From positions 35,880,501-35,944,500 of the forward strand of contig CM074865.1 in the NCBI GenBank assembly GCA_037501455.1: 64,000 bases of DNA, given 5' to 3'. Origin of the DNA: Lantana camara (lineage: Eukaryota; Streptophyta; Magnoliopsida; Lamiales; Verbenaceae). Shown here one piece after another: positions 7,606-60,853 of the stretch. Below the pieces are notes generated by a model. That model did no database searches. It had not been told where the DNA came from and saw nothing but the letters and a program-made list of their open reading frames with translations. The first letter of the stretch is position 1; every line of letters begins with the position of its first letter. A program made the position numbers and the translations under genes.

Positions 7606-7687
7606 GTGTGTGTGTGTGTGCATGCCGTGTGTGTGTGTGTGTTCGTGCATGGTGTGTGTGTGTACCGTGTGTGTGTGGGTGTGTGTA
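7606..7687. repeat. (GT)n microsatellite in B 5' LTR
   Basis: Interrupted GT repeats. The equivalent tract in the 3' LTR (17978-18062) differs slightly in length, as expected of slippage after insertion. Confidence 0.9.
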
Positions 7688-8847: not shown

Positions 8848-8998
8848 GTTGTTGTTGACCTTGGTCCAATAGTCTACTGTGTACGGAGTTATTGTTGACC
8901 TTGGTCCAATGCTCTACTTTATGTGGGGTTATTGTTGATCCTGGTCCGATACTCTACTATACGTGGAATTATTGTTGATCCTGGTCCGATGCTCAACC
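8848..8998 (+). repeat. 40-bp tandem repeat, about 3.8 units, B 5' LTR
   Basis: Four consecutive units begin at 8848, 8888, 8928 and 8968, each built on GTTNTTGTTGAYCYTGGTCC followed by a CTCTACT-like segment. Units 1-2 share GACCTTGGTCCAAT and units 3-4 share GATCCTGGTCCGAT, suggesting duplication of a two-unit block. Confidence 0.9.
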
Positions 8999-9875: not shown

Positions 9876-9887
9876 TGGTATCAGAGC
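9876..9887 (+). other. Primer-binding site of element B
   Basis: TGGTATCAGAGC begins nine bases after the LTR end at 9866, complementary to plant initiator Met tRNA. Confidence 0.95.
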
Positions 9888-10054
9888 ATCGGGTTAAGTA
9901 AGAAGAGACTTAACGTAGATTGCTCTCATGTTGCATCATGGATTGTTCACGCATTGCATCCAGGATCATTCTCATATTGTATCAAGACAGGATATTTGGG
10001 GATTGCATGGTTCTGTTATCTGGATTTCATATCTGTGGTATCTTCTGTATAGCT

Positions 10055-10735: not shown

Positions 10736-11551
10736 TTGCTGATGGGAGATTTCTGTATATAGTACTGATGCATATATATCTATCTATGGATGGCGGACGT
10801 ATAGCCGGGACAGTTCAGGACTGACTTTTGGATGAGGGGATGTATAGCTCTGGTAGATGGTCCCGGACTTTTGGCACCACGGATGACGGTTCAGATGACT
10901 TGGTACCTACTAGGTTATTTTCAGCAGGGTTGGACGGATTGGTAAGGCCTGTAAGGGAGTCAACTCGATAGTATCGGGTCCTCCCCATTTTGAATTAATA
11001 CTGTTAACATGTGGCCTGTAGTAAATTTTACCAAACCTTGCACAGTTATAACACTTTCGGCTTTATGTTGAATATCTGTTTACTGCTTTCCATAACTGTC
11101 ATTGCATGAGTCTTAGAGTTGCTTCAAGATACCATTAGGACCGTTGATAGGATCATGCCATTTCATTTATTGTTAGCATGTTATTATTCTTGATATGTTG
11201 ATACGCTTCTGGATATGTTGATCATGTTACAGTTCTTGTTGATATGACAGTACACGTTCTGTTCCCGTTTTACATGTCGATCATGTTTTGGGATAAGTAT
11301 ACATGTTTCTGATATGTTGATATGTTGCCCGAGCTTCTGTTCTCGTTTACATGTTATCTGACAATTGTTTCTGATTATATGATATGTTTGGAGATCTTGA
11401 ATCTTTGCTGACATATTGTTATGGGAATGTGATGTTCTCATACTTATGTGTGACTACGTGAGAATGTGAATACGTGGTTACGGATTCTGTGAATCATTAT
11501 ATGTCATGCATCGAATATATGTATCTGAATGCTTATGAATTCAGTAACAAT
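10736..11551 (+). other. Non-coding leader of element B before gag
   Basis: An AT-rich stretch between the extra ORF and gag. I see no coding potential. It contains several GATATGTTGAT-like repeats (11191-11310). Confidence 0.6.
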
Positions 11552-19100: not shown

Positions 19101-20238
19101 CAATCTGTCTGGGAACGGACAGCAAATCTGTTCCCATTACATGTTTACAGGTCGCCTAGGGCTAGCTACCCGAAGTGACAACCGGTGGAGGATGGTGCAT
19201 GTTTGTATGTGTTGGTAAGAGTTGTTGTTGACCTTGGTCCAATAGTCTACTGTGTACGGAGTTGTTGTTGACCTTGGTCCAATGCTCTACTTTATGTGGG
19301 GTTATTGTTGATCCTGGTCCGATACTCTACTATACGTGGAATTATTGTTGATCCTGGTCCGATGCTCAACTAAATCATGTTTTCTGGAGTAAGGATGGAG
19401 GAGCCTAGCTTGCGGGCAAAATTCTGTTTCATAAAGGATGGTTCATATCTGGAAAAGTTCACTTTACCCTTATCCCGTTTTATGAAAGAACTATGAACCA
19501 TCAACAGCATATGTGTGCGCGTGTGATAGCATTCATGAAAATGTTTTATAACGTGCATTCTTTTACAGCATCGCATTCAAAGAGTTTTATCAACCGAACT
19601 TGTTTCAAGTTCTTCTTCAAAGCATTGCATTTAACAGTTTCGAACTTTACTTCAAGTTCTTTATCATTCAGTACTTTCTTTAAAGTATTCCCTCACTTAG
19701 TCCTTTTGACTAATACCTCTCCCGTTTTCTTGCCTCGTGGTTTCAGGTCTTGCAGCCGCAGTCTAGAGGTATCTTGAAGCTCTAGATTGTCATTTTTGTT
19801 TCTGTCAGGACTTAGTATTACTTCCTCTTTTGCGTCCTGCATATGTTTTATTGCTGCATCACTTTATGTTTCTGTATATGTTTCTGAATACTTGAGTATC
19901 TTTGTATACTCTTTCTGCTACTCTGTTACCGATATTTTGAACTCTGTTGTATCGGTACTTATATGTGAATCTGTTATATGTTCTGATATGCCGAGTCTCT
20001 CTTACACGATCAATATGTTCTTGCTTGTTACATGCCATCACGCACATGTTTTGAAAAGTTTTAAAATACTCTGATTTTCCGCTGCATAGCCACATCGTTG
20101 TACATGTATAGTTCTGATAGACAGCCGTTCGCTGGAGTATTTCTTGAGTGATGGCTCACACCATTACTTGAGAGGTGCTTCAGTGCGGGGGTTGAGACGC
20201 CGCTCTCCTCTTGTTCTGGTACGGGTGGGGGCGTTACA
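16109..20238 (+). repeat. 3' LTR of element B
   Basis: The same length (4,130 bp) as the 5' LTR and nearly identical. Differences seen by eye are about 25 single-base changes or one-base indels, several clustered near 16984-17005 against 6612-6633. It ends GGGGGCGTTACA at 20238, followed by target duplication GGTTT. Confidence 0.96.
19221..19371 (+). repeat. 40-bp tandem repeat in B 3' LTR
   Basis: The same repeat as at 8848-8998, with the same unit number and a few substitutions. Confidence 0.9.
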
Positions 20239-20633
20239 GGTTTCCAATTCTTTCTTGTACACGCCGGACTCAAATCGAATCGAATGTTCCAATTTCTAGA
20301 AGCTTGTTTCAATCCATTGAACGTTGAAGCTTGCAAACATTTTGCTCGCTCCCACTGAATGTAAAACCCATGGGTTGCTCCATGTAAATGTCTTTGTCAA
20401 TGTCTCCATTGAGAAAGGCAGTTTGCACATCCATTTGTCATATCTCATAGTCATAATATGTCGCAATGGCAAGTAGGATCGTAATGGATTTTCGCATTGC
20501 AACTGGGGAGAAGGTTTCATCAAAGTCTACACCTGGTCTTTGAGTAAACCCCTTAGCAACTAATCTTGCTTTAAAGGCTGCCACGCTTCCATCTACTCCA
20601 AGCTTACACTTATATATCCATTTACACCCTATG
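20239..20633 (-). pseudogene. Copia D reverse transcriptase, N-terminal part
   Basis: The minus strand encodes the start of the copia RT: CKWIYKCKLGVDGSVAAFKA, LVAKGFTQRPGVDFDETFSP and a QTAFLNG-type region further on, with frame damage. It is bounded by element B on the left and solo LTR E on the right, and continues across E into the integrase-RT linker at 23888. The target duplications of both insertions fit this reading exactly. Confidence 0.9.
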
Positions 20634-34069: not shown

Positions 34070-34653
34070 TGTAACATCCCGCTCGTCCGATTTATAAGGT
34101 ACGTCATGTTTCAACCTTTTAATGTGTTTAATTATGTGATTTTGTACTTTGCTCGGCTCTATTTTGAACTCTTTAAGAGTTTAGGGGCTTGTTTGTAATT
34201 TTCTCTTTTTAGGGGTTTACATAATTTTCTCTGTTTGTAATTTGCTCGGCTCTACGGATTTTGTACTTTGCTCGGCTCTATATGTAATTTTGAACTCTTC
34301 AACGCGTTCGGGGAATCGAAACGAGTCCGTAGACTCTAAGTTTGCCCAATTCTGACGTCGTTAGCTCCTCCTACCGATCGTTTTACACGTGAGGACCCAA
34401 GATAAAAACCCTGGATCCTCGTTTTGCGTGCCATAACTCCAGCTCCAGACTCAGCTCTCCCTCTCTCCCTCGATTTTCACTGTTCACATACACTCACGGT
34501 GTATTTTCACGAACAACCCGGAACTCGTTCTTTTCTCGACGGAATTCGACGAACCAATAGTGCTTTTCGATGAGCTCGACGACGCGGTCACAACCGTACC
34601 AAGAACTCGACCAACCGGCTGACTACGACGGAGATATCGCTGGATTTCAGTAG
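34070..34653 (+). mobile_element. Solo gypsy LTR G, first part
   Basis: Starts TGTAACATCCCGC and is preceded by TTACC (34065-34069); the other end is 48407, followed by TTACC (48408-48412). It is interrupted by element H, whose AGTAG duplication marks the break. The segment includes a GAGTC/GACTC dyad near 34326 and a CT-rich stretch at 34440-34490. Confidence 0.92.
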
Positions 34654-34963
34654 TGTAACGCCCCGACTTTTCGGACGTAAAGGTAGGACGTATGTGTTTA
34701 CCTATTTGCGCGAATTAATTGTTTTACGTGGTATATATTTAATTTTTTTTTATAATTGTTATTATTATATTACATTATATTATATTAATTTATTTTAATA
34801 TTATTAATTTTATATATATATGTTTCGTATTATATATATATGCTAATTACTTTATTATTAATTTAATGATTATACTAATTATATGTTATATTAATTAACC
34901 ATGTATTAATTAATTAATTGATTATTTATGTATATATATATATTTTATACGTACAATATATTT

Positions 34964-35069
34964 TGCATGGAGAATTTAATTATGCATGCAACCTAATATA
35001 TTTATGCATGAATTTCAATTTTTGCATGGGTTTAATATAATTATGCATGGGAGTTATAATATATGCATG
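34964..35069. promoter_or_regulatory. Phased array of six TGCATG (RY) motifs in H LTR
   Basis: TGCATG occurs at 34964, 34983, 35005, 35023, 35044 and 35064, spaced 18-22 bp, about two helical turns. The complement CATGCA is the RY core bound by B3 factors of the ABI3/FUS3 type in seeds. The array is repeated in the 3' LTR at 41483-41588. The regulatory role is inferred. Confidence 0.6.
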
Positions 35070-38027
35070 GAATTATGTTGAATTGCATATATGAGGTTGC
35101 TCGTTTATTTTGTGCTCCGTTCTCTTATGAAATGATATCGAATTGCCACGAATTTGTAATATGTTGTACATATATGTGTTATGGACATGATTTTATGCTC
35201 AAATTATGTTTTTGAATTCATTTGTTGTGTTAACGAATTTAATTTCATTTGAGGAACCAAAGCGGGAGCTAACGAGCACTTAGCGTACCCTTGGTTCCGA
35301 ATTTAAAATCTTGAGCTCGGGAACTCGGATTCGAGTTCCGTCAACTCCGCTGAACTCGTAATGAAAATTCGAGTTTAGTGAACTTAGCCTTATAATTTTC
35401 CCAATTCATTTGAAACTCCGAAATCCAACCGAAAAACGAAACGGAGACCAACTTGACCTTGTTACACTAATTCATCCATAACTTGGCCAAACCACAACCA
35501 AATTAACCATGGTTTGATTCCTTTAAACCCTAACTCAACCATCTATCTAGATATTTCAAGCCTTGACCGAGATTATCATCACTCCATCCCCAAACATCAG
35601 CCAAAGCTACTGTTTTCTCTCCAGATCCGTAACCCTTCATCCCTTGGAGATTTTGGAGCTCAAATCTCCTCCAAACTTCAACCAATCATCAAGGTAAGCT
35701 TAGGGTTGTAATATATGATTAATTCTGAGCATTTTCATCTTTTCATTCAAGATTTTGAGCCTGGTTTCATTCATTTCTGACCATTTTCCCGAAAATGGAA
35801 GTTTTGAGCAAATTCATGATCTACTTCGATTCTTAACGGTTTTGATCGATTCCAAGCATGAGAATGATTGTTTTGACATCCTCATTTCATTTATGATCAT
35901 TGATTACATGGTTGTTGAAGTATTTATGATATATCATTTATGACAATTTTCAGAAAAATCCCACGTATAGGTCACGTACACCTTCATGTCTTGATTGATC
36001 ACTTTTGGAACTGATTTCCTTGTTGAATATATGATATTTTGCTACACAATTGATGGACTTTTGTACCTGATTGAAATCGGATTGAATGAGCTCAAGCTTG
36101 CCCTGTTTTTCTTCTCGTTTGGCCCTGTTTTCACGCAGAGAAAATTGCTGTCAATTTGCTGTTTTTCCTTTTCCTTGTTGCTGTCATTTTTAGTGGCTTT
36201 TTAGCATGTATTATGGTTGAGTTGTTGCAGCAATTTGTGCCTTGTAATGTTGCCTATCTTGCTCGTACATGCCTGTCTTTTTCATGCTCTGTTTCTGCGT
36301 CTTTTTCTGTCAAACTGGGCTGTTGCTGTTGCACGACACGGGGGTGTCGATTGCTGCCTTTCCGGCGAGGCACGGGGGTGCTGCAAGGCCTGGAACTTCT
36401 GTACCGAGACACGGGGGTGTCTCGGTCCAGGCTTTGTGGGTGACACGGGGGTGTCACCCCATTCTACTTGAATTCTTTTGCTGCGTTTTCATGGGACTGC
36501 TGCTGTTCCTGCGTCTTCTTCCCTGCATGTTGAACTGTTGCTGCTGAGTATATTTGTGCATGGCTGCTGTGGAATTGTGTGTGTGTAATTGCATGAAAGT
36601 ATGATATGTATTATATATATATTGTGTAATTAAATGCATGCTTGGTTTATGTATAATGTATAGTATATATTAGGTGTGTATTTGTGCATGCATGTGTGAG
36701 TGTTGTATGTGTATAACAAATATATATGCATGCATGGCTGTGAATATATATATATATATATATTTTGCATGTAAAATATATAATGCATGCATGTTGTGTG
36801 TGAGTGTGTACGTGAGTTATATATATATATATGTAATGTGTATATATGTGTTATATTATATTATATATTATGTATGTTTATTATATATTATGTATATTTG
36901 TTATATATTCTAAATATTATTTGATTTAATTTAATTATTGAAATTAATTGATTTCTATTTCGCGTATTTATTCTACTGACTATTAATTGAACGTTCTATT
37001 TATTTTATTCCTAAATGTGAAATTGAATAATATGTGTTATGCTTCGTAAATGAATTTTAGATTAACTGATATGCATTATAAATGTTTTGAATGTTACGAA
37101 TATATGAATTTATGAATTTATGAAATTATGGAATTGAATGAGATATATGAACGAATGAATGATTATATGTTTTAAATTTATTAATCGTGCACATGAACAT
37201 TTTTATGATATAACATGATCATTTATGCATCCATGTCATATTCACTTCATTGCCGAGCGTCATATGTGGTCATTGAGTCTCATACCTTTTCTTTTACACA
37301 GATTCGGGTTTGGTCAGAAACGCGGGCGAGCCCTGAGACGCTTGTGCTTTATTTTGCTTTGGTAAAGGTGGGTTTTTCTTCTACTAGTTAAAACAACCCT
37401 ATAAATCCCTTATGTGCAAAGTTTTAAGCCGAAATAGTATATTTATATAAATCGAGTCATTTTGGGTAAATGATTTCAAACGTATGACTCCTTTTATTTA
37501 TGAAACCCTACCTTATGTTTTGGCGAGATTGTATGTATGTTATGTTCACGGGCCCCGGGACTTAGTATATGTGGCTAACCCAGGAAGCAAGGGCTGACGG
37601 GGATCCCATATACTAGTTCCAACCAATTTACGACGATACGGACCTCGTTAGGAGTTTTGACGAGGAAACGCAAGTCGGGCTTTTGAGGATTCATGTACCT
37701 TACTAGCCATTATGTATGATTCGGTGGTCAGGTCTAGCTAACTTGTCCACCACCCGGAGGAAGAAGGTGTATATGTATGATTATGATCATTTATGTATGT
37801 GCACAAAATATATGTATGATAACCAATAATTATGATATGACTACACGAGGAGAAGGTTGGAGTTTGTGCACGCTCACTCGCCGAGCTTAAACCCTTATGA
37901 ACAATTATGAATGAATATGAACGTCGTAATCCCGTTGATGTTTTTCGTTGTTTTAACCACTTGGTAAATTCTTATCAAACTTCACACGGGATTAGGGCTT
38001 GCATGTATGTGTTTCATTTATGCGATA

Positions 38028-38076
38028 TTATATATCTTATGCCCCGTTTTTATACCCACCAGTCTCTTTTAGACTG
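38028..38076 (+). promoter_or_regulatory. TATA region and R-start hairpin of element H
   Basis: ATTATATATC lies about 30 nt before CCCACCAGTCT. CAGTCT (38060-38065) and AGACTG (38071-38076) form a perfect 6-bp stem. The 3' LTR copy of the hairpin is at 44577-44593. Confidence 0.55.
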
Positions 38077-38535
38077 AACCCGGTTGTTTTCAGCTGTTTT
38101 GTGCAGGTATAGGAGTGCTAGGCGGGAATACAAGTCGTCTAGGTCTTGCATTTATGTTTAGCACTTCTTTTCAGTATCATATTCATACTCTTGTTGATAC
38201 TTTTGTATATGATTATAGTTTTAGTTTTGGAGCGTTATGATTTTTGTAAGCCGTGAGTGCCGTTGAATATTTGGATGATCTTGTATATCTATTTTTGGAG
38301 CTTGTTAGCTCATTGTGTATATGCTATGTATTTCTTGCTTCCGCGAATTTTATGTAACTCTGATTTTATGATTCCTGTGTTGATTGGTTCAAGGGTTAGT
38401 CCCGCCTAGCATAGCGTGTGTGTTGTGTCCCCGTTCGCCGTGGATTTGACACGTGTATGGACTTCCATTCCATATACGGGTCGGGTCTCGGTGCGGGGGA
38501 TGTGGTACCTTACGCTCGGGTACTACATCCTTAAG

Positions 38536-38547
38536 TGGTATCAGAGC
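38536..38547 (+). other. Primer-binding site of element H
   Basis: TGGTATCAGAGC lies eight bases after the 5' LTR end, complementary to initiator Met tRNA. Confidence 0.95.
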
Positions 38548-38741
38548 TTAGGGTTGCAAAACCTGGGCTCTAGTGTCGTGTTGAGTCAGTTAGGTCGTTC
38601 GGCTTTAGGAACAACTTGTCAATGTGTTGCATATACATTGTTTACGTGCTTGTGTGCTTTAAATCTCGAATTTTGATTGAATTAATTGCACTTGCATGCA
38701 TGGACTAAAGATAGCATGCATTTTAGTGTTCCTTGAACAGG

Positions 38742-40031
38742 ATGCCTCCACGTAGACATCGTGAGAGATCTCCCGGACATCGTCGTCATCATGATCGATC
38801 TCCTACGCCTCCACCCCAACCACAAGCACCACCTATGGACATGGGAAATTTCATGGAAGCGGTCTTCAACTATGTAGAGCATCGGAGAGCTCAAGCTCCC
38901 CCACCACAACAAGCAGAACAACCGGCGCCTCCACCAAATCATAATAATAATAGAGACCCGCATGGGGTGTTTCTGAGTTACAACCCCCCTCGATTTTCTG
39001 GTTCTATCGACGATTCGGTCTCGGAGGGTTGGTTGATTCGACTAGAGAGGATATTTGGGGTCCGACAGTTTACTACACAAGAGAAGGCTCAATTTGCTAT
39101 ATTCCAACTTGATGGAGATGCATATGAATGGTGGGAACGAACAAGGGAGAAACTTGAGGTCGATGAAGAGGAAGTAACTTGGGAGGTCTTTAAAAGAGAA
39201 TTCAGAGAATGCTTTGTGCCGGAGGTAGTGAGAGAGAGAAAGGAGCAAGAGTTCATGGATCTAAAGCAAGGGGCTCGTACGGTGACTCAATACCTCGCCG
39301 TATCCAATAGACTCGGGAAATATGCTCCTCATGTCACCCGGGATGAGAAAAGGAAAGCAAGGAAATTCATTGCGGGGTTAAGACAGGATTTGAGACACGG
39401 CCAAGCGGGTCACAACTTCGAGTCATTTGCCGACACGGTGCAAAGAGCTTTGGTTCAAGAGGAGGAATTCAAGAAGAAGGATCCGGTTTTTAGAGCTCCT
39501 ATGGAAAGAGGTTCCGGATCGAATTCGGGAAAGAGGCCGATGGTTCAAGCTACTTCCCCTCCTAAGGTTCCGTTTAAGAAGCCAAGAATGGGAGGACCAA
39601 CTCCCCCGATTCCAATAGCTTTGCCTGCACCAACAAGGGATCGACAAGGTCCGAGTGAAGCACGATTATCCAAGCCACCATGTACATATTGTGGAGGGCC
39701 AACTCACAATTATCACAAATGCTGGAAGAGGTTGGGTTTATGCCTAATATGTGGAAAAGCTGATCATATGGCGGATACATGCCCCGACAAGACTCCGGGA
39801 TTTAAAAAGGGAGTTCAAAGGCCAATGATCCAGGCTCGTGCTTACGCCCTTGAAGGTGAAGAGCAAGATGCAGAGATCGATCCCACAGCAGTGGTAGAAG
39901 GTACCCTATGCATACATAACATGAGCATTCATGCACTCTTTGATTCGGGTGTTATGCATTCTTTTATTTCTTGTGACTTAGTTGCTATTCTGTGCTTGCC
40001 TGTTATTTGCTTTTCTTCTTGTTGTTGGTGA
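38742..40031 (+). CDS. Intact Gag of element H with protease stub
   Basis: The ATG at 38742 gives MPPRRHRERSPGHRR, matching the Gag start of element B, and yields 429 residues. A basic/proline-rich N-terminus is followed by a retrotransposon Gag capsid region (about 80-220, with YEWWERTREKL, FRECFVPEVVRERK and YAPHVTRDEKRKARKFI). A Ser/Lys-rich linker follows, then two CCHC knuckles near 313-345 (CTYCGGPTHNYHKC, CLICGKADHMADTC), and the start of the protease with DSGVMHSFIS near 400. The frame ends soon after, where a deletion joins it to RT remnants. Gag alone could form particles or package the RNA; the intact frame in a pol-deleted element fits a gag-only parasite type known in plants (TR-GAG). 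Confidence 0.9.
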   Translation: MPPRRHRERSPGHRRHHDRSPTPPPQPQAPPMDMGNFMEAVFNYVEHRRAQAPPPQQAEQPAPPPNHNNNRDPHGVFLSYNPPRFSGSIDDSVSEGWLIRLERIFGVRQFTTQEKAQFAIFQLDGDAYEWWERTREKLEVDEEEVTWEVFKREFRECFVPEVVRERKEQEFMDLKQGARTVTQYLAVSNRLGKYAPHVTRDEKRKARKFIAGLRQDLRHGQAGHNFESFADTVQRALVQEEEFKKKDPVFRAPMERGSGSNSGKRPMVQATSPPKVPFKKPRMGGPTPPIPIALPAPTRDRQGPSEARLSKPPCTYCGGPTHNYHKCWKRLGLCLICGKADHMADTCPDKTPGFKKGVQRPMIQARAYALEGEEQDAEIDPTAVVEGTLCIHNMSIHALFDSGVMHSFISCDLVAILCLPVICFSSCCW

Positions 40032-41158
40032 GTTCGCCACTGGGTGGTAATCTTCTTCGATGACATCTGGGTTTATTCGAGAACTCCGGAGGATCATGCC
40101 AGGCACCTCAAGATTGTGTTGGATACCATCCCGGCAAAGCCCGAAAACTGTTTCAGAAGTAAAGCGTTTCTGGGGTTTGGCAGATTACTATCGAAGCTTT
40201 GTACAGGATTTTCGAAGATTACAGCTCCTTTAACCCGATTGACTAAGAAGGTGGTCAAGTTTGAGTGGGACGAGGCATGAGGATAGCTTTCAACTTTTAA
40301 AGGAAAAGTTGACCACCGCTCCTGTATTAGCACTTCCTGAAGGTACAGAAAGATATACAGTTTATACGGACGCCTCAAAAGGAAGTTTGGGATGTGTGTC
40401 GATGCAAAATGGAAGAGTGATCGCCTATGCCTCAAGGAAACTGAAAGGGCATGAACAGAACTACCCCACTCACGATTCGGAATTAGTGACAGTGATCTTT
40501 GCTTTGAGTAATGAAGGGGACTTGGAAGTATTAAATACAGTGGATTTGCTGCTCAAGGCATTTAGAAACAAGGAAGTGGTTAAAATTAATGGCAGAGAAC
40601 AGGCAGTAATAAATGAAGACGATGAAAGGTGAGAGACCTGAAGGAGAATTACGGTAAGGAAATTTTCAAAGCTGTGACATCAGCTCTGTTTGAGGTAAAC
40701 GAATACAACCCGAGTGGACGTAACATTATTTCAGAAATGTGGAACTACAAGGAAGGTGGACAAAATCCGCTCATCTTCTTACAATCAGAATGTCCGATAA
40801 CTGAATAAGTTGACCAAGAGATACAATGATGAGATTGTCAGGCTTCATGGGGTACTTGTTAGTATTGTCTCGGATAGGGATCCCAGATTTACTTCACGGT
40901 TATGGCAAGAATTGCAGAAGTGTTTGGAAGCAAGGCTTCAATTCAGCACAGCTTTCCATCCTCAGACCGACGGACAATCAGAAAGGATTTTCAAGGATTG
41001 GACGGGGAGGAAAATTTAACCCTCGGGTTATGGGACCATATGAGATTTTGGAGAAGTGATAAAACCGAAGAGACTACGTGGGAGACAGAGGATAAGATGA
41101 AAAGGATTTCCCCCTGAGTTGTTTCCGAGCGAGCAGTGAATCCGAGGACGGATTCTTT
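40032..41158 (+). pseudogene. Deleted pol of element H (RT, RNase H, integrase, tail scraps)
   Basis: Pieces in order: RT catalytic region VVIFFDDIWVYSRTPEDHA (about 40044), a jump to [14 protein letters not shown], RNase [18 protein letters not shown] to [17 protein letters not shown] (ending about 40508), then foreign sequence (see 40555-40762). Integrase resumes at about 40800 ([35 protein letters not shown]), then GRGGKFNPRVMGPYEILE and a TEETTWETEDKM tail near 41070. Large internal deletions and frame changes remove most of RT and integrase. Deletions this extensive between nearly identical LTRs suggest they existed before insertion. Confidence 0.9.
40555..40762 (+). pseudogene. Captured fragment resembling the XH domain of IDN2/FDM proteins
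   Basis: Between RNase H and integrase scraps, sense with the element, lies non-retroelement coding sequence. One frame reads [18 protein letters not shown]; after a one-base shift near 40629 it continues RDLKENYGKEIFKAVTSAL, VNEYNPSGR and SEMWNYKEG. The spacing of EDDERL, AVTSAL, NEYNPSGR and E(L/M)WNxKEG is what I know from the C-terminal XH domain of plant XS/XH proteins (IDN2 and FDM family), which act with double-stranded RNA in RNA-directed DNA methylation. No intron is seen in the fragment. It is too short and broken to encode a working domain. The assignment rests on motif recognition only. Confidence 0.72.
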
Positions 41159-41172
41159 TAAGGGGGAGAGAT
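41159..41172 (+). other. Polypurine tract of element H
   Basis: AAGGGGGAGAGAT precedes the 3' LTR TG at 41173, in the GAGGACGGATTCTTTTAAGGGGG context shared with element N. Confidence 0.85.
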
Positions 41173-44100
41173 TGTAACGCCCCGACTTTTCGGACGTAAA
41201 GGTAGGACGTATGTGTTTACCTATTTGCGCGAATTAATTGTTTTACGTGGTATATATTTAATTTTTTTTTATAATTGTTATTATTATATTACATTATATT
41301 ATATTAATTTATTTTAATATTATTAATTTTATATATATATGTTTCGTATTATATATATATGCTAATTACTTTATTATTAATTTAATGATTATACTAATTA
41401 TATGTTATATTAATTAACCATGTATTAATTAATTAATTGATTATTTATGTATATATATATATTTTATACGTACAATATATTTTGCATGGAGAATTTAATT
41501 ATGCATGCAACCTAATATATTTATGCATGAATTTCAATTTTTGCATGGGTTTAATATAATTATGCATGGGAGTTATAATATATGCATGGAATTATGTTGA
41601 ATTGCATATATGAGGTTGCTCGTTTATTTTGTGCTCCGTTCTCTTATGAAATGATATCGAATTGCCACGAATTTGTAATATGTTGTACATATATGTGTTA
41701 TGGACATGATTTTATGCTCAAATTATGTTTTTGAATTCATTTGTTGTGTTAACGAATTTAATTTCATTTGAGGAACCAAAGCGGGAGCTAACGAGCACTT
41801 AGCGTACCCTTGGTTCCGAATTTAAAATCTTGAGCTCGGGAACTCGGATTCGAGTTCCGTCAACTCCGCTGAACTCGTAACGAAAATTTGAGTTTAGTGA
41901 ACTTAGCCTTATAATTTTCCCAATTCATTTGAAACTCCGAAATCCAACCGAAAAACGAAACGGAGACCAACTTGACCTTGTTACACTAATTCATCCATAA
42001 CTTGGCCAAACCACAACCAAATTAACCATGGTTTGATTCCTTTAAACCCTAACTCAACCATCTATCTAGATATTTCAAGCCTTGACCGAGATTATCATCA
42101 CTCCATCCCCAAACATCAGCCAAAGCTACTGTTTTCTCTCCAGATCCGTAACCCTTCATCCCTTGGAGATTTTGGAGCTCAAATCTCCTCCAAACTTCAA
42201 CCAATCATCAAGGTAAGCTTAGGGTTGTAATATATGATTAATTCTGAGCATTTTCATCTTTTCATTCAAGATTTTGAGCCTGGTTTCATTCATTTCTGAC
42301 CATTTTCCCGAAAATGGAAGTTTTGAGCAAATTCATGATCTACTTCGATTCTTAACGGTTTTGATCGATTCCAAGCATGAGAATGATTGTTTTGACATCC
42401 TCATTTCATTTATGATCATTGATTACATGGTTGTTGAAGTATTTATGATATATCATTTATGACAATTTTCAGAAAAATCCCACGTATAGGTCACGTACAC
42501 CTTCATGTCTTGATTGATCACTTTTGGAACTGATTTCCTTGTTGAATATATGATATTTTGCTACACAATTGATGGACTTTTGTACCTGATTGAAATCGGA
42601 TTGAATGAGCTCAAGCTTGCCCTGTTTTTCTTCTCGTTTGGCCCTGTTTTCACGCAGAGAAAATTGCTGTCAATTTGCTGTTTTTCCTTTTCCTTGTTGC
42701 TGTCATTTTTAGTGGCTTTTTAGCATGTATTATGGTTGAGTTGTTGCAGCAATTTGTGCCTTGTAATGTTGCCTATCTTGCTCGTACATGCCTGTCTTTT
42801 TCATGCTCTGTTTCTGCGTCTTTTTCTGTCAAACTGGGCTGTTGCTGTTGCACGACACGGGGGTGTCGATTGCTGCCTTTCCGGCGAGGCACGGGGGTGC
42901 TGCAAGGCCTGGAACTTCTGTACCGAGACACGGGGGTGTCTCGGTCCAGGCTTTGTGGGTGACACGGGGGTGTCACCCCATTCTACTTGAATTCTTTTGC
43001 TGCGTTTTCATGGGACTACTGCTGTTCCTGCGTCTTCTTCCCTGCATGTTGAACTGTTGCTGCTGAGTATATTTGTGCATGGCTGCTGTGGAATTGTGTG
43101 TGTGTAATTGCATGAAAGTATGATATGTATTATATATATATTGTGTAATTAAATGCATGCTTGGTTTATGTATAATGTATAGTATATATTAGGTGTGTAT
43201 TTGTGCATGCATGTGTGAGTGTTGTATGTGTATAACAAATATATATGCATGCATGGCTGTGAATATATATATATATATATTTTGCATGTAAAATATATAA
43301 TGCATGCATGTTGTGTGTGAGTGTGTACGTGAGTTATATATATATATATGTAATGTGTATATATGTGTTATATTATATTATATATTATGTATGTTTATTA
43401 TATATTATGTATATTTGTTATATATTCTAAATATTATTTGATTTAATTTAATTATTGAAATTAATTGATTTCTATTTCGCGTATTTATTCTACTGACTAT
43501 TAATTGAACGTTCTATTTATTTTATTCCTAAATGTGAAATTGAATAATATGTGTTATGCTTCTTAAATGAATTTTAGATTAACTGATATGCATTATAAAT
43601 GTTTTGAATGTTACGAATATATGAATTTATGAATTTATGAAATTATGGAATTGAATGAGATATATGAACGAATGAATGATTATATGTTTTAAATTTATTA
43701 ATCGTGCACATGAACATTTTTATGATATAACATGATCATTTATGCATCCATGTCATATTCACTTCATTGCCGAGCGTCATATGTGGTCATTGAGTCTCAT
43801 ACCTTTTCTTTTACACAGATTCGGGTTTGGTCAGAAACGCGGGCGAGCCCTGAGACGCTTGTGCTTTATTTTGCTTTGGTAAAGGTGGGTTTTTCTTCTA
43901 CTAGTTAAAACAACCCTATAAATCCCTTATGTGCAAAGTTTTAAGCCGAAATAGTATATTTATATAAATCGAGTCATTTTGGGTAAATGATTTCAAACGT
44001 ATGACTCCTTTTATTTATGAAACCCTACCTTATGTTTTGGCGAGATTGTATGTATGTTATGTTCACGGGCCCCGGGACTTAGTATATGTGGCTAACCGAG

Positions 44101-45044
44101 GAAGCAAGGGCTGACTGGGATCCCATATACTAGTTCCAACCAATTTACGACGATACGGACCTCGTTAGGAGTTTTGACGAGGAAACGCAAGTCGGGCTTT
44201 TGAGGATTCATGTACCTCACTAGCCATTATGTATGATTCGGTGGTCAGGTCTAGCTAACTTGTCCACCACCCGGAGGAAGAAGGTGTATATGTATGATTA
44301 TGATCATTTATGTATGTGCACAAAATATATGTATGATAACCAATAATTATGATATGACTACACGAGGAGAAGGTTGGAGTTTGTGCACGCTCACTCGCCG
44401 AGCTTAAACCCTTATGAACAATTATGAATGAATATGAACGTCGTAATCCCGTTGATGTTTTTCGTTGTTTTAACCACTTGGTAAATTCTTATCAAACTTC
44501 ACACGGGATTAGGGCTTGCATGTATGTGTTTCATTTATGCGATATTATATATCTTATGCCCCGTTTTTATACCCACCAGTCTCTTTTAGACTGAACCCGG
44601 TTGTTTTCAGCTGTTTTGTGCAGGTATAGGAGTGCTAGGCGGGAATACAAGTCGTCTAGGTCTTGCATTTATGTTTAGCACTTCTTTTCAGTATCATATT
44701 CATACTCTTGTTGATACTTTTGTATATGATTATAGTTTTAGTTTTGGAGCGTTATGATTTTTGTAAGCCGTGAGTGCCGTTGAATATTTGGATGATCTTG
44801 TATATCTATTTTTGGAGCTTGTTAGCTCATTGTGTATATGCTATGTATTTCTTGCTTCCGCGAATTTTATGTAACTCTGATTTTATGATTCCTGTGTTGA
44901 TTGGTTCAAGGGTTAGTCCCGCCTAGCATAGCGTGTGTGTTGTGTCCCCGTTCGCCGTGGATTTGACACGTGTATGGACTTCCATTCCATATACGGGTCG
45001 GGTCTCGGTGCGGGGGATGTGGTACCTTACGCTCGGGTACTACA
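41173..45044 (+). repeat. 3' LTR of element H
   Basis: Nearly identical to 34654-38527. Differences seen include AATGAAAATTCGA/AACGAAAATTTGA near 41880, one base at 43018, one near 43563, two around 44097-44117, one near 44218, and small TA-run length changes. Ends ..CTACA, followed by AGTAG. Confidence 0.96.
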
Positions 45045-48000
45045 AGTAGCGTAGGAGAAGGGTGGCGGAGCCGCCACTTTGGCGGCCATTCGCGGCGTTT
45101 TCCGGCGGGCATCGATCGACACGCGTCACCTACACAGTTGGAAGAGGTCCCTACGCATCGGATGACGTTGGCGGCGCGGCCATTCGGGCCGCGGTTGAGC
45201 CACACTCGCCGCCTGAAGCTCGAGGCGGCGGCGCACGGTACTGTAGCGGCGGCGTTTTCCGCCGCTCCGGCGGCTTTTTCCGACCAAGGTAAGTGTTTTC
45301 CTAGGTTTTTCGACCCCCTAAGTCCATTTCCGGCGTCAGTTTGATAAGATTTTGGCCGTAGGTGGTGGTTCCAGCAAGGGAAGCGGCGGCAGAAACTTCG
45401 AAGGGCAATGGGGGCCTTTTCCGGCGATCTTTTGGCCTCGGGCCCTTCACGAAAGTTGTTCGGAACGACGAGAACTATTAAAACCCATTTGCTCGACTCC
45501 AGATTTTGCCGTTTGGAGCCGGTTCGCGGCGGCACAGTGGCGGCGCCACCTCCGGGGATTTTTCCGGCGAGAAAGCTTAGGGCTTTCGTAAAACTCGTCA
45601 CGGGTAAGCCGATGCCTCTTTCGGATCTCATTTTGGTTCACCGGTTTGAAAGTAATTGAAGTTTGAAGATTCTAGGGTTTTCGTATTCTTGGATTTTAAA
45701 TTGGAGACAATGGGCTTGGAATTTGCAGAAATTGATCGAGGAATTGGATTGAGCACGATGAATCCTTGCACGGGTGATTTTTCGGGATTTTTTCGGCAGG
45801 TTCCGGCGGCGGCCGAACGGCGGCCGGCCACTATTCCGGCAGCTCTGGCGACGGCGCTCCGGTGACCTTCGGACAGCTTGTCCGCTTCGTCGTGGAGAGT
45901 CCAACACCACTTTCCGTTCGTTAATCGGACACTCGGTTTATTTTCTGTAAATTTATTTGTATAGTTGTGTATATTTAATTATTTGTTCTAATTGTACTTT
46001 AATTGCGATTTGCTTGACTTATCGATTTATATGAACCCCGATGTATACGAAATCTTACATTTAATGAAATATGATATGCATTGACGCTTTGAATTGTAAA
46101 TTGAACCCGTTATGCCAAAATTGTATTAGTTGCTAATTGTTTAAAATGTGATTCGTACTTGTATGTTCGATAAATTGATGAATATATATGTAATGAATTA
46201 TGAATGTATAATTCTTGTCCAAGGGGTGTTTATGTAATTTTAGAAAATACAAATTTGTATAACTTGAATTAATTGAACCTTATCATTTGAAAACGATGAA
46301 GCTAATTTTGATTTAAGTAAAAGTTGAATTAGCATGCCTTGGATGATTAATTTGAGACTTTTGCAATTAAAGTTTAATTACCTAAATTGAATTTGGATTT
46401 CATATGTAGTGCATGAATTGAATATGTAAAATATGAATTGTATGAATTGAGTAGGGTTAGAATTTGATTTGTAACCTCGTGAAATTTGTATGAATTAGGA
46501 AGCATGCTATTATGATTTATTTGATTTATTAATATGTGTCAATTGATATGAAAGGTGCTATGTGAATTTGCATGAAATGAATAATATGATTTGTCTTGCC
46601 TTTCAGTTTCCCTAATCTGTATTAATTGTACGTATGAACATGCCTTAATGTTTTGTTTTGCATAGAATTAATATGAATTTGAAACCTGCTTATGTGATTG
46701 CATTTCGTAAGTGCTTGAGCATTGCCGTGCGTCTCTGTGTAGTTGTCTGAGTTTGAGTCTGAGCCCTGTGTTGTGTTTGTGTGTTCAGTTGGTTCAGGTG
46801 CACCCGGGGTGGTGACAAGTGAGTCGTGCAGGTTCCGGGGTGGACCTTCTGCTTTGTGTTCGGCTGTGTTTGGTACCAGGTGAGGTTAGGATATTGTTAT
46901 ACCCTATTGCAACGTGGGCGTTTTCGAATGCATGTGGTTTATAAGCCTTATGTATAGGTAGATATGTGCGAAGTACGTATTTTGATGGTTTTGTCATATG
47001 ATTTGATTTGAAAAGTACGAATCGCTATGTATAAGCCTATGTATGGTTTGTCTCAGTTCTGTTATGATTTCGAGGTCAGTCTGCGTGATATGTACGTACG
47101 ATATGATAAGTACGATATGCATGAGATATGTTCATCTGTCTGTGTGTGTGAGTATAAGTTTCGTCTGGTAAGTGCGATAAGTTTAGGCTTTGTTTCGTTT
47201 GTATCGGATTCAAGCAAGTCTCCGATTTTCTGTTGGTTTTTATCTGTTTGGGCCCCGGAGCTGTGGGTAAGGGAGACCCGGGACGACCATCGGGGTCGCC
47301 GGTTACGACCCCTGTGCACTTCTCCACCAACGGGAGACTTAGTTCTCCTATGCCGACGGAGCGCATTTTGGCTGGCCGTCGAAGGAACCGCGCGGGATCC
47401 TCCGGTTCACATGTTTCGGTCTGTGGTGGGTTGAGAGGGGCACCTCTCTTCCCCAAACGGTGTGGAGGTGGGATTGATTTATGATTCGTTTTGTGTTTCG
47501 CTTCGTCTTTGTTTCTTGGTAAGTGTGTTCTGTCTGTCGGTCTGTCATAAGTTCGTGAAACGGGGGTAGATTGTTAAATTAAGATAAAAATTTGATATAC
47601 TTTTAAGTTAATAAGATATGCTCCGATGAGTGCGTTAAGTCTGCATGAATCCGAGTTGTGCCTTAAGAAACTTTTGATTTAAGATTTGTTTGGTCTGTCT
47701 GATAAGTCTCCCTATATGTATATTATCACGGGAAAATATTTTGGCGTGCAAAAACTAACCCCGGGTTCACGAACGTCGCTTCTTCTTTGTGTTGTGCTCT
47801 ATATATATGTATAGTGTGCGTGTGTCAGCCCCTCGCTCAGTCTTTGGACTGACCCCTCCCCTTTTATGTTTTAGATCGCAGGCTTTGCTTTGGAGGTCGT
47901 TGGAGTTCGTGCTAGGCGGCTGTGTGTCGAGTCTGTCGAGTCTGTGTCCGTCTGTTTAAGTTTATTAAGTTCTGGCTCTGGTTTATGATTTGTAAATGTT

Positions 48001-48407
48001 ATATAAGATATGTTTGTGCAGGTTTGCAATTATGATTTGAATTTATGGAATTCGGGACAGGTTAGGACAGGTGCTCGGATTAGTTGAACCCGTTGTGAAT
48101 ATATGATTTCTCGGGACAGGTTAGGATAGGTTTGCTGGATTAGTCGAACCCGTTTAGTTGATTTTGATGTTTGTATGGTACGGTGTGTTTCAGGTATGAA
48201 ATTTTTTGTAAGTTGGCATTTCGTGCTACTTCCGCTATCATGTTTTGCATATTTTCTTTTGTACAGGGTTAGATACCGCCTAGCTAGTGAGTGTGTTTTT
48301 GTTTGTCACCTGTTTGCTGTGACTTGGAGCGTGTGCGGACCTTCCATTTCGTACACGTGTCGGGTCATAGTGCGGGGGATGTGGCACCTCACGTGCGGGG
48401 TGTTACA
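45045..48407 (+). mobile_element. Solo gypsy LTR G, second part
   Basis: Continues from 34653 after element H. It opens with a GC-rich block (45060-45870) containing many TTCCGGCG-like motifs, with a donor-like AAG|GTAAG at 45289. After AT-rich sequence come a GGGCCC box (47250), TATATATATA at 47800, CTCGCTCAGTC and an R-start hairpin, acceptor-like AG at 47881, and a GCTAGGCGG/CCGCCTAGC pair (47911-47919 and 48276-48284). It ends GGGGTGTTACA at 48407. ORFs in the GC-rich block are open in several frames on both strands, a composition effect. Confidence 0.92.
47800..47851 (+). promoter_or_regulatory. TATA box and R-start hairpin of LTR G
   Basis: TATATATA at 47800 precedes GCCCCTCGCTCAGTC by about 30 nt. 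CAGTC (47838-47842) and GACTG (47847-47851) flank a TTTG loop. Confidence 0.55.
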
Positions 48408-54493: not shown

Positions 54494-57400
54494 TGTAACA
54501 CCCCAAGCGGTGGGGCACCACACCCCCGCACTATGACCCGACACGTGTACAAAATGGAGAGTCCGCACAGGCACCAAGTCACAGCGAACGGGTGACAAAT
54601 GAAAACACACACACTATCTAGGCGGTACCTAAACCTGTACAAAAGGGAATATGTGAAACATGACAGCGGAAGCCAGGCAAAATACCAACTTTCAAAAATT
54701 TTCATACGTTAAACATATTGAGCAATACAGAAATCAAAATCATCTACGCGGATTCAACTAATCGATCGAACCTGTCCTATCCTGTCCCGAACAATTACAC
54801 AACAAGACAGGTTCAACTAGCCCTAGAAACCTATCCCGAATAATCATATAATGAAACGGGTTCATCTAATCTAAGCATCTGTCCTAACCTGTCCCGAATT
54901 TCATACATTCAAATCATACAAGCAAACCTGTACAGAAGAAATCTTATACAAAATTTACGAATCATAAATCAAAGCAAAATACTTAACAAACTTAAACGAA
55001 CAGACACAGACTCAATGGACACGACACACCGCCGCCTAGAACGAACTCCAACGACTTGAGCCTGCAACTAAAAACATAAAAGGGGGAGGGGTCAGTCCAA
55101 AGACTAAGCGAGGGGTTAACACATGCACGCTATACATATATACAGAGCACAACACATAGTAGAAGCAATGTTCGTGAACCCGGGGTTAGTTTTGCACGCC
55201 AAAACATTTTCCCGTGAAAGTATACATATAGGGAGGCTTAAAACCAAACCAACAAATCTTAACTCAAACGTTTCTTAACGTATAAACTCGGATTCATTCA
55301 GATTTAGCACACATATCGGAACATAACTTATTAGGCCAATGGCAAAAACAAATTTTATCTTAACTTAAGAGTCTAACCCCGTTTCACGAACTTATAACCG
55401 CCAAACATAACGAAACTCGGCGGGTACGAGTACACAACCAACCAACTCCTTCATAAAACACAAAGACTTAAGCACACGAAATCAAAATACACATACCTCC
55501 ACTTACACCGGTTGATGGGTAGGTTGTACATACCCAAACCATCTGCGCTGATATGTCAGGGTCGTGAGTTTCATGACACTCACACCCAAGGACTCCATCC
55601 CCCACTAACCTCCTAGTGGGTTCCGGGTTGATCTTATAAAATGGAGAAGTGTACAGGGGTTGCAACCGGTGACCCCATGGTCGTCCCAAGTCTCCCATTA
55701 CACGTAACTCCAGGGCCCAAACTTACACTTACACTTACACATATCATACAAAGCATAATCCCGCTAGACTCACACTTATACATAGCACATGCATATCGTA
55801 CTTATCATATCGTACGTATATATCACGCCGACCATAAAATCATAACGAAATCAAAGCTAAGCGTACACAGGCTTATACATAGCTTCATACTTTCAAACTT
55901 ATGCCAAAGCCAACAAATACGTATCTCACACATAACTACATATACATAGAGGCTTATAAGTCACATGCATTCGAAAACCGGCACATTTCGATAGGGTATA
56001 ACTATATCCTAACCTCACCTGGTACCAGACAAAGTTGAAGACACAGCGAATGGTCCACCTCGGAACCTGTGCGACCCCAAGTCACCACCCCGGGTGCACC
56101 TGTACCAACTGAACACACAAAACAGACGACAAAGCTCAGACCCAGGCAGACAATCACACAGAGACGCACGACAAATGCTCTAACACTTAAGGGATGCAAT
56201 CACATAAGTGAGATTCAAATGCACATCACTTATATGCAAAAGAAAACATTAGAGCACGTTCAGGCGAACAATTAATGTAAATAGAAGGAAATGAAAGGCA
56301 ATGCAAATCATATCATTTCATATAAATTCATTTATCAATAACCAGTTCATATTCGTACGAATAAATTATTTCTTACGTGCAAAAGTTTCTAATTAAATCC
56401 TAGAAGTTCCATTCAACTCATATTTCACATTTTATACAAAATCCACATATTACAAGGCCAACTAAATCATATAATAGCATGTGATGAATTCATTTAGACC
56501 TACGGGGTTATATACCAAGTTCCGACTAAGCCATTTAACCATTCAAAGTTCATACAATTCATACATTGCATAATAGATTCAAATTCAATTTAGGTAATTA
56601 AACTTTAATTGCAAAAGTCTCAAATTTAATCATCCAAGGCATAATAATTCAACTTTTACTTAATCAAAATTTAGCATAATCGTTTTCAAATGATAATGTT
56701 CAATTAAATCAAGTTATACAAATTGTATTTTCTAAAATTACGTAAACACCCCCTTGTTTTTATACATAACAATTGGCATGAAATGGCACTAATATCAACA
56801 ACAAATCATGAATTCATACATTAATAATTCATTATACATTTTCAAATACCAAGCAATGCATATTCATCAATTTATCAAAGATATAAGAACAAATTCCATT
56901 TTAAATAATTAACAACTAATACAATTCCGGCATAATGGGGTTCAATTTACAATTCAAAGCATCAATACATATCACATTTCTTTAAATGTATGATTTCGTA
57001 TACATTGGAGTTCATATAAATCGATAAATCAAGCTAATAGCAATTAAACTACATTTAGAACAATTAATCAAATAAATCCCAAATGCATAAATAAATTCGC
57101 AGAAATTAAACCGAGTGTCCGATTGACGAACGGAAAGTGGCGTTGGACTCATCACGATGAGGCGGACAAACTGTCCGAAGGTCGTCGGAGCGCCGCAGCC
57201 GGAGCTGCCGGAACAGTGGCCGGCCGCCGCCGGAACTTGCCTGAAAAATCCCAAAAAATCACCCGCGCAAGTACTCCTCGTGCTCGTTCCAATTCCTCAA
57301 CCAATTTCTGGAAATTCCAAGCCAATCGTCTCCAACTTCAAATCCAAGAATACGAAAACCCTAAAATCTTCAAATCGAAATTATTTCCAAACTGGTGAAC

Positions 57401-57667
57401 GAAAATGAGATCCGAAAGAGGCATTGTCTTACCCGTGACAAGCTCTTCGAAAGCCCTAAGCTATTCGCCGGGAAAAATCCCCGGAGCAGACCTCCGCGGT
57501 GATCTGATGCTGCGCCTCCGTGATCCGCCACCAAACGGCCAAATTTGGAGTCGCGTGAATGGGGATCGATAGTTCTCGTCATTCCGAACAACTTCCTTGA
57601 AGGGTCTGTTGCCAAAAGATCACTGGAAAAGGCCCCCGATGTCCTTCGAAAAATCTGGTGCCACTCT
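54494..57667 (-). mobile_element. Gypsy LTR K (G-family), inverted, interrupted
   Basis: The plus strand begins TGTAACACCCC, the reverse complement of the G-type LTR end. The sequence then follows LTR G in reverse: a TCTAGGCGG/CCGCCTAGA pair (54617-54625 and 55032-55040), R-start hairpin near 55093, TATA near 55132, GGGCCC near 55717, AT-rich DNA, and the GC-rich TTCCGGCG block (57170-57660). It stops at 57667 where element M begins, inside the G-type 5' segment, so M is probably inserted in K and the rest of K lies to the right. Left flank is GATGT. No coding sequence. Confidence 0.85.
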
Positions 57668-58395
57668 TGTAACATCCTGCTCATCCGCCCATACAGGTAC
57701 GCCTTTACGAGAGAGCTATATGCGCTTTTAAATTATTTAATTATGAAATTATTTTTTATTTGAATGACAATGTGATTATTTGAAATAAATTGTAATTAAT
57801 TTGTTTAACTTATACTTGAGTTTTAACGTTTACGTACACGTACTTTGTAATTTCTCCTTTTGTGCTCGAATTTAATTTAGTTTCTTGTGAATTTTTGACA
57901 TATGTGAACTACATGAGTTATGAATGTGATTATGTGCTCGTTACATGTTTTAGAGTTTGTTTTATGTGGTTTTTGGCCAGTTTTGTAAAAACGGGATTTG
58001 TGAGGGATTCGAGGGCCTAACTTGTTTAGCGCCCCTCGTGTTCCGGAAGGCGTAACTGGAGCTCGGGAATTCGAATTTGAATTCCGGAAGATGCATCGGA
58101 CTTGTAACGAAGAAATGAAGACAAAGAACTTAGCCTCACATTTTTCTAAGCCCCTTTGATCCTCCGAATTTCGTCCGGATTGAGCCCATTGGGATAGCTT
58201 TGCCACCTTTCACTAATTAAGCCATATCTTGACCAATCCTTTACCAAATTAGGTGTTTCTTGGGCCCAAATTCCACTTACTCACTCCTCTATCCATTCCG
58301 TAGCCTCTCATTTCGTTTTCAGCAGCCAAGGGAGAGGAAAAACAGTAGCAACACGAGATAGAGAGAGAGGGAAGGAGAAGTACTATTCAACTTCA
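57668..58395 (+). mobile_element. 5' LTR fragment of element M
   Basis: Starts TGTAACATCCTGC and follows the J-type LTR start (AGAGCTATATGCGCTTTTAAATTATTTAATTATG, GGAATTC/GAATTCC dyad at 58066-58085, CT/AG-rich segment). It ends abruptly at about 58395, where sequence becomes pol. Roughly three quarters of the LTR, the primer site, gag and most of the protease are missing. Confidence 0.75.
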
Positions 58396-58399
58396 AAAG

Positions 58400-60853
58400 A
58401 TGCAGAGGTATGGGATAATCCTTGCAATGGATTGGTTGTTCGAGCACCGAGCTTTGATGGATTATCATGAAAAAAAGGTTTCTTTGGGTTTTGTGGTTTT
58501 CACGGGCGAGAGGTTAAAGTCCAGCCCGTTTGTTTCGTTTGTTGAGGCGAGTAAACTGGTTCGGGATGGTCCGAGAGGTTTTGTGGCCCATCTTTTGAAC
58601 AAATCTAAAGATCAGGCTAAACTTGAAAAGACGGAGGTTGTACAAGAGTATTCCGATCTTTTCCCTGAGACTTTGGGTTCTTTAGCACCCGCTAGGGACA
58701 TCGAGTTTGTAGTAGACCTCCATCCCGGAGCAGAGCCTTTCTCAAAGACTCCTTATAGGATGGCTCCTGCTGAACTTAAGGAGTTGAAGTCGCATCTTGA
58801 TGAACTTCTAGCTTGCGGGTACATCCGTCCGAGCACTTCTCCGTGGGGTGCTCCCCGTTTTCTTTGTAAAGAAGAAAGATGGAACATTACGGATGTGCAT
58901 TGATTACAACGAGTTAAATCGAATCACCGTGAAGAATAAATACCCTTTGCCTCACATCGAGGAGTTGCTCGATATTCTGCAGGGTTCTAAGATTTACTCC
59001 AAGTTAGATTTGAGGCAGGGTTATTATCAGTTGCGTATCAGGGCGGAGGATATACTGAAGACCAGGTTTAATACTCGGTTGGGTATTCTAAGTTTGTTGT
59101 GATACTGTTTGGATTAACAAATGCCCCAGCTGTGTTCATGGACATGATGCACCGAATGTTCAGACTGTTCCTTGATAAGTTTGTAGTGATCTTTATAGAC
59201 GATATTCTGGTGTATTCGAGGTCCACTAAAGAGCATGCATAGCACCTTCGGATCGTCTGATGTATTCGAGGTCCACTAAGTGTGAGTTTTAGATCGACAG
59301 AGTCATATTCCTAGGCCATATCATTTCAGGCAATGGAGTTGAAGTTGATCCTTCCAAGATTGAGTCAGTGCTTCATTGGGAAAGACCGAGAAATGCCTCA
59401 GAGAATGGAAGTTTTCATGGGTTAGCAGGGTATTATCGCAGGTTCGTTAAGGACTTCTCTAAGATTGTCTCCCCGTTGATTCGGTTAACTAAGAAAGAGG
59501 TGCGGTTTGAATGAGATGACAAGTGTGAAGCTAGTTTCCAGACTTTAAAGGTTAGTTTGACTTCAGCACCGGTTGTTACCCTGCCCAAGGGTATAAAGGG
59601 TTATGCAGTATATACAGATGCTTCCAAAGAGTGTCTCGGATATGTTTTGATGCAGAATGGTAGAGTGGTAGCTTATGCTTCAAGGAAGTTGAAGGTGCAT
59701 GAGAAGAATTACCCTACTCATGACCTTGAATTAGCCGCCGTTGTGTTTGCCTTGTTGAATTGGCGACTCAACCTTTATAGTGCAACGTTTGAAGTGTTTA
59801 CCGATCATCGAAGCCTCAAGTATCTCTTTTCTCAAAAAGATTTGAATGTGAGACAGAGGCGTTGGGTGGCGTTTCTAGAGGATTATGATTGCGAAATCCA
59901 GTACCACCCTGGTAAGGCCAATGTGGTAGCCGATGCCTTGAGCAGGAAGGCGAGTGTAGCTAATTTGGAAGTTGGTTCTTTGAGTTTGGGTTTAGAGGTT
60001 ATGGTTTCAGGGACTTGGTTGGCTAATCTCACCGTTAAGGTAGATTTGAAACAACAATTGTTAGAAGCTTAAGCTTCGGATGTAGATGTTCAGAAGTTGG
60101 TTGCCCATTCAAGAGTTGATCCGAATTCCAAGTCCAGACTAGATGATCCGGGTTTGTTGAGGTTTGAAGCGAGAGTATGTGTCCTAGAAGAGCTCAAGAG
60201 ACTTATACTTGAGGAGGCACATTGTTAAGGGTACTCTATCCATCCGGGAGGTACCAAGATGTATCCGGATTTGAAAGAGAGATTCTGGTAGAGTGGCATG
60301 AAAAGGGATGTCGCAAACTTCGTGAAGCGATGTCTAACATGTCAAAGAGTGAAAGGTGAGCACCAAAAACCAGGAGGAACTCTCCAACCGCTTCCTATTC
60401 CCAAATGGAAATGGGAGCAAGTGACTACGGACTTCGTGTCCGGCTTGCCCAGAGTTAAAGGAGGGTTTGATGGAATATGGGTGATTGTTGATCGATTTAC
60501 CAAGTCTGCCCATTTTCTCAAGGTCGGATGTCCGACAAGGTACCAAAGCTAACCGAGTTGTATTGCAGAGAGATCGTCAGATTGCATGGGGTTCCAACTA
60601 GTATTGGTTCGGACAAAGATCTGAGATTCACTTCGATCTTTTAGCAGAATCTTCAGTAGTGTTTGGGCACCCGCCCAAAGTTTAGCACCGCCTCGCATCC
60701 TCAAACAGATGGACTATCTAAAAGGTTAATTCAGTACCTCGAGGATATCCTTAGTGCGTGTGCGTTGGATTTTCAAGATAAGCGGGACAAACACCTACCT
60801 TTGGTTGAGTTTGCCTACAATAATAGTTTTCATGCTTCGTTGAAGATGGCTCC
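58400..60853 (+). pseudogene. Gypsy M pol: RT, RNase H, integrase with several breaks
   Basis: Begins in the last part of the protease (YGIILAMDWL), then RT ([25 protein letters not shown], a frameshift near 58855, [11 protein letters not shown], and FIDDILVYS near 59195). RNase H follows ([20 protein letters not shown] to [14 protein letters not shown]), then integrase ([71 protein letters not shown]). In-frame stops occur near 59102, 59240, 59290, 59512, 60072, 60228 and 60655. A 19-bp direct repeat (59211-59229, 59261-59279) flanks an RT deletion. Element N interrupts the integrase at 60853. Confidence 0.92.

Follow-up and report, generated by a model that had tools for sequence, protein, structure and literature searches.

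Non-autonomous LTR elements of the TR-GAG type have LTRs and an open gag with little or no pol, and TART-A of Drosophila is a non-LTR element. Host sequence carried by plant LTR elements is known (PMC7264820, PMC4838847, PMC3726574), plant retrogenes flanked by LTR elements have been described (PMC4838847), and LTR-captured genes, annotated as such within full-length elements, were counted at 672 in rice, 1343 in sorghum and 424 in maize (PMC3726574). The maize LTR element Bs1 contains pieces of three host genes (ATPase, xylan endohydrolase and beta-1,3-glucanase) in a chimeric gene described as transcribed and translated (PMC13317346). The telomeric element TART-A carries in its UTR part of nxf2, a gene from the very pathway by which TART-A is silenced (93-96% nucleotide identity), and antisense piRNAs and degradome data are reported for it (PMC7785250). 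VANDAL and Kaonashi are DNA transposons in conflict with silencing, with a captured host domain (Ulp1) in a conserved gene; their hypomethylating activity is ascribed to VANC-type genes (PMC13317346).

The element described here (element H) lies in the window, that is, the whole 64,000-nucleotide stretch of plant DNA analysed, which is rich in retroelements. It is like TR-GAG elements in its LTRs and open gag, and unlike them in retaining pol scraps and a host fragment, a sense-oriented tract of about 253 bases (roughly 40507-40759) that matches IDN2 (INVOLVED IN DE NOVO 2). Like Bs1, it is an LTR element with host-gene pieces, but these are two IDN2 pieces in a broken frame; as in the rice, sorghum and maize captures, the gene sequence lies within a full-length LTR element, but those captures are annotated genes and the H tract is a 253-nt scrap found by sequence reading. 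With TART-A it shares a captured part of a gene from its own silencing pathway, and with VANDAL and Kaonashi a captured host domain; unlike TART-A, H is known from sequence alone. The capture of a gene fragment by H is real and of a familiar kind; what stands out is the donor. The sequence-only reading, made before this analysis, had called the event rare. That may be true of the donor gene, but the process is not rare, given the rice, sorghum and maize counts; among the results listed by our open-access literature search there was no report of an IDN2 or XH fragment in a transposon. A donor from the transposon-silencing pathway makes the capture worth testing, and the composite, apparently spliced structure of the tract records a possible capture route. 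H also offers a testable plant parallel to TART-A and nxf2: does silencing of an element spill onto its donor silencing gene? In our preferred reading, to which we give a probability of about 0.73, H is a non-autonomous Ty3/gypsy element that would have taken up the tract by a template switch to spliced IDN2 mRNA, been mobilised in trans, inserted recently, and now carries a decaying passenger.

H is an LTR retrotransposon by its near-identical direct LTRs with TG...CA ends, target-site duplication, primer-binding site and polypurine tract (the purine-rich AAGGGGGAGA immediately 5' of the 3' LTR). Its boundaries and 5' parts are:

34654-45044, element H, a complete LTR insertion (LTR pair and target-site duplication)
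34649..34653, no strand, target-site duplication AGTAG, left copy
34654..38527, + strand, 5' LTR, 3874 bp
38528-41172, interior: primer-binding site, gag/protease frame, then pol scraps
38536..38547, + strand, primer-binding site region, TGGTATCAGAGC
38742..40031, + strand, open gag and protease start (Pfam), first ATG at 38742
41173..45044, + strand, 3' LTR
45045..45049, no strand, target-site duplication AGTAG, right copy

The primer-binding site is presumably of the initiator-Met tRNA type, and the gag frame is recognised by Pfam as Retrotrans_gag (2.7e-18) and RVP_2 (1.2e-7). The LTR pair differs by seven substitutions and one 2-base gap (K2P 0.0018), which bears out the earlier description of H as young; three assumed rates turn this distance into an insertion age of about 60-130 thousand years.

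The rest of the interior consists of pol scraps interrupted by the foreign tract:

40041..40130, + strand, RT C-terminal scrap, VVIFFDDIWVYSRTPEDHARHL (tblastn to element A, 3.7e-15)
40140..40506, + strand, RT/RNase H scrap (Pfam RT_RNaseH_2, 2.3e-22; tblastn to A, 6.3e-41)
40507..40575, + strand, IDN2 block 1, coiled-coil segment, in the RNase H frame (alignment to IDN2)
40576..40759, + strand, IDN2 block 2, central XH domain (Pfam XH in its second half, 6.6e-16; IDN2 identity)
40602..40603, + strand, position matching a putative parental exon junction, GAACAG/GCAGTAATA, continuous, no intron
40760..40995, + strand, integrase core scrap starting TKSAH, frames broken
40979..41117, + strand, integrase C-terminal and chromodomain-region scraps, QKGFSRIGRGGKFNPR and ETTWETEDKMK

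Element A (5736-20239) is a near-intact chromodomain-bearing gypsy element in the same window, in which Pfam finds RVP_2, RVT_1, RNaseH, H2C2 and Chromo, with rve under its cut-off. The H scraps align to it in the order PR-RT-RH-INT, which places H in the Ty3/gypsy (chromovirus) lineage. The Tekay label given by the sequence-only reading stays provisional, as H retains too little RT. Relative to the A polyprotein, H breaks off in protease at residue 450, picks up in RT at residue 756 and has another gap within RT; its RNase H continues to residue 954, its integrase resumes by tblastn from residue 1219 (TKSAH, placed by eye, falls slightly before this), and two further deletions lie ahead of the chromodomain region. 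In all, five internal segments are deleted or replaced and the frame is broken several times, so H is not autonomous. The RT scrap reaches just 0.0022 with Pfam RVT_1, under the cut-off of that profile; the RT/RNase H scrap, which follows an internal deletion, has an internal frame break and a strong RNase H match. The integrase start at TKSAH (40760-40800) was read by eye from the translation, and the tblastn match to A begins at 40801 (9.5e-23 over 40801-40995; Pfam rve 0.05, under its cut-off). The scraps at 40979..41117 match A at 1.2e-9 and 9.4e-5, and Pfam gives no match for the last 22 aa.

The IDN2 tract stands in place of the end of RNase H and the start of integrase: RNase H homology stops at about 40506 and integrase homology begins at about 40760, so the tract lies between scraps of these two domains, where the sequence-only reading had put it. 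That reading had also named a sense-oriented XH segment, and both orientation and domain are confirmed. Pfam XH (PF03469) matches at 40626-40805 (E 6.6e-16; score 58.9 bits, curated threshold 22.2 bits; profile positions 66-110 of 131), and of the motifs listed earlier AVTSAL, VNEYNPSGR and SEMWNYKEG are present, with INEDDER in the neighbouring frame, upstream of a single-base break in the frame near 40630. On its own, the upstream half (40531-40629, 33 aa) gives no Pfam match; it was recognised through alignment to IDN2 proteins. The original span, 40555..40762, was right in location and too narrow on the left, where 40510-40575 also matches the IDN2 coiled coil. Aligned to the Rehmannia protein P0003, the blocks reach scores of 86 and 246, whereas 1000 shuffles of each give 46 and 54 at most; together with the Pfam value, this rules out chance similarity. 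XH as a conserved accessory domain of the lineage was rejected as well: it is absent from A, which goes from RNase H to integrase, A being the one full relative in this comparison (a second fragment, 58349-60072, is traceable just to the end of RNase H). A search of annotated proteins for other XH-carrying retroelements (162-aa query) gave six candidates of about 89-283 aa, none at 0.01, which says little since such scraps are seldom annotated. A PDB search with the XH piece gave 0 matches at E 1.

The donor is supported by these protein comparisons as an IDN2-type gene with its best matches in Lamiales, and the IDN2 alignment, with the absence of XH from A, upholds the proposed host-gene capture. 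From the fragment, the host too would belong to Lamiales. Among 1158 candidates, six proteins matched the tract at E up to 0.001; they come from Rehmannia, Handroanthus and three species of Orobanche, and taxonomy look-up places R. glutinosa, H. impetiginosus and O. gracilis in Lamiales. A search with the Rehmannia protein returned 1262 proteins, many of the best 120 being named INVOLVED IN DE NOVO 2. H shares most residues with P0003 (65 of 84), followed by P0009, P0010 and P0004 with 63 each. The two relatives scanned with Pfam, P0009 and P0013, have zf-XS, XS and XH, whereas H does not have the complete set of zf-XS, XS, coiled coil and entire XH in a single open frame. An FDM1-like donor is disfavoured: P0044, P0073 and P0077, named factor of DNA methylation 1-like or 1-5, share 39, 35 and 37 of the 84 residues against 65 for P0003, which speaks for IDN2 without judging every paralogue fairly, since these three rows are partly misaligned in block 1. 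In a poorly resolved tree of the 84 columns (84 protein rows plus H, with gapped and duplicate rows dropped), H falls beside three long branches and not inside Lamiales (support 65/90), with a terminal branch of 0.15 against a median of 0.066; we relied on identity ranks instead. Among the relatives, P0004 (Handroanthus, 859 aa) has its zf-XS/XS half duplicated in sequence, and P0016, P0028, P0032, P0033 and P0036, of similar length (about 860 aa), may share the duplication.

The captured piece is composite. Block 1 matches over 40510-40575, 40507-40509 being uncertain, and 18 of its 22 residues are identical to P0003, P0004, P0009, P0010 and P0013. Block 2 is identical to Paulownia P0009 at 45 of 61 residues and covers about 61 of the 131 XH positions (the XH of P0013 spans 507-637). 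Between the blocks, H lacks 94 parental residues when set against 31 of the 35 top-scoring parents (79, 80, 149 and 149 against the other four). This skip matches neither of the two putative exon junctions discussed below, which makes a jump or a deletion a better explanation than the splicing considered here.

The evidence for a spliced donor comes from 119 predicted proteins (from the best 120 of 1262) aligned to P0013 as reference. Inserts of at least 2 residues lie exactly at GKHQ/AVI in five of these (P0003, P0006, P0007, P0008 and P0010, from five species) and at one residue or less from it in two more (P0031 and P0045); a second insert site, VN/GLKEM in P0006 and P0007, falls within the 94-residue gap. 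We infer that the GKHQ/AVI inserts are an intron partly kept or mis-spliced in the gene predictions. H reads unbroken through this position, which indirectly suggests that the donor was spliced IDN2 mRNA, the junction itself being placed from predicted proteins and not from donor genomic DNA. The loop at GKHQ/AVI also varies in length by nature, since 17 of the 119 relatives carry a 2-residue insert three residues upstream. Other inserts are found chiefly after residues 560 (17 relatives), 601 (14) and 612 (13); the 12 examples listed for each of the latter two are all from Citrus, and H reads through site 601 too.

Block 1 and the beginning of block 2 share the RNase H frame, up to the one-base break. 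Between H and its closest relative, 19 of the 84 columns differ, one being the frame break, whereas by arithmetic from K2P 0.0018 some 0.2 changes would have accrued in 253 nt after insertion; most of the divergence is therefore older than the insertion of H or lay in the donor. Since this divergence exceeds the insertion age, the chimera probably predates this copy and the chimera itself, not just its pieces, probably moved, in line with the earlier claim of movement after capture. Departures were counted over 29 relatives, which we take to be Lamiales (P0048 is nameless; five of the species compared were confirmed by taxonomy look-up), one row being dropped (P0007, 3 gaps) and P0006 kept with 9 misaligned columns. 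H deviates at 3 of the 26 invariant columns and at 7 of the 50 conserved ones, against 0-3 and 0-8 for the 28 remaining relatives, each left out in turn, so that H sits at the divergent end but inside the range. The captured fragment looks like a decaying passenger, presumably without function.

The capture was most likely accidental and from messenger RNA. With LTRs, primer-binding site and open gag kept and pol collapsed, H is a non-autonomous Ty3/gypsy-type element. In an ancestor, reverse transcription within a virus-like particle probably switched from element RNA onto a spliced IDN2 mRNA packaged alongside it and then back, exchanging the end of RNase H and the start of integrase for some 250 bases of IDN2; the 94-codon skip would be a second jump or a later deletion, and the chimera would have been mobilised in trans by an autonomous relative before its recent insertion at the present site. 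Chimeric LTR elements have been described to arise by template switching between packaged RNAs (PMC13317346; PMC1950507). Several points count against this reading: the intron position is derived from predicted proteins in a loop of naturally variable length, the decay is modest (the departures of H stay within the leave-one-out ranges of its relatives), and the weakly supported tree leaves H outside Lamiales. Because the loop at the putative junction varies, we slightly lowered our confidence in the template switch and slightly raised that in a patch at the DNA level, by which a break in an integrated H would have been filled with part of the genomic IDN2 gene or of an already present IDN2 retropseudogene and the product later transposed. 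Such a patch would yield the same final structure, the pol deletions could arise on DNA too, and repair by capture of reverse-transcribed spliced mRNA has been reported in mouse zygotes (PMC4516963); the unbroken putative junction opposes direct copying of genomic IDN2, yet permits a pre-existing retrocopy. We consider this route possible but rather unlikely.

Action of the fragment in trans, with small RNAs from silenced H reducing host IDN2 or IDN2-like siRNAs helping to silence H, appears improbable. The segment is IDN2-derived and sense-oriented, and there are precedents in the nxf2 sequence of TART-A with its matching piRNAs (PMC7785250) and in captured fragments of maize described as siRNA reservoirs (PMC13317346), but an identity of 65/84 to the nearest protein found suggests that there may be few perfect 21-24 nt matches. 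That a plant LTR retrotransposon family might keep an IDN2 piece because its siRNAs dampen IDN2 and RNA-directed DNA methylation, as a counterpart to TART-A/nxf2, is even less to be expected. A decoy role had been proposed too, and a truncated XH protein from H that binds IDN2 partners is hardly credible: the tract encodes about half a domain in a broken frame, and the sole ATG of the XH frame, at 40737, comes after NEYNPSGR, with none ahead of the XH motifs. In ALFEVN...EMW of H, the E and W have the same 16-residue spacing as E600 and W616, to which we assume they correspond by our own mapping on an Arabidopsis sequence. E600 and W616 are named in a study of the IDN2 XH domain, which by itself binds IDP1/2 in yeast two-hybrid assays (PMC3342958).

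Two further features of the window were recorded. The LTRs of element A (5736-9867 and 16108-20239) are about 4.13 kb long and 99.3% identical; its RNase H has one in-frame stop (TGA, 14387-14389), which splits two same-register open frames, and upstream of its gag, at 10121-10735, lies a 204-aa open frame with an acidic end and no Pfam match at E 0.01. An inverted pair of related repeats, about 80-90% identical in pieces, lies at 45397-48407 and 54494-57650, close to H on its right side.
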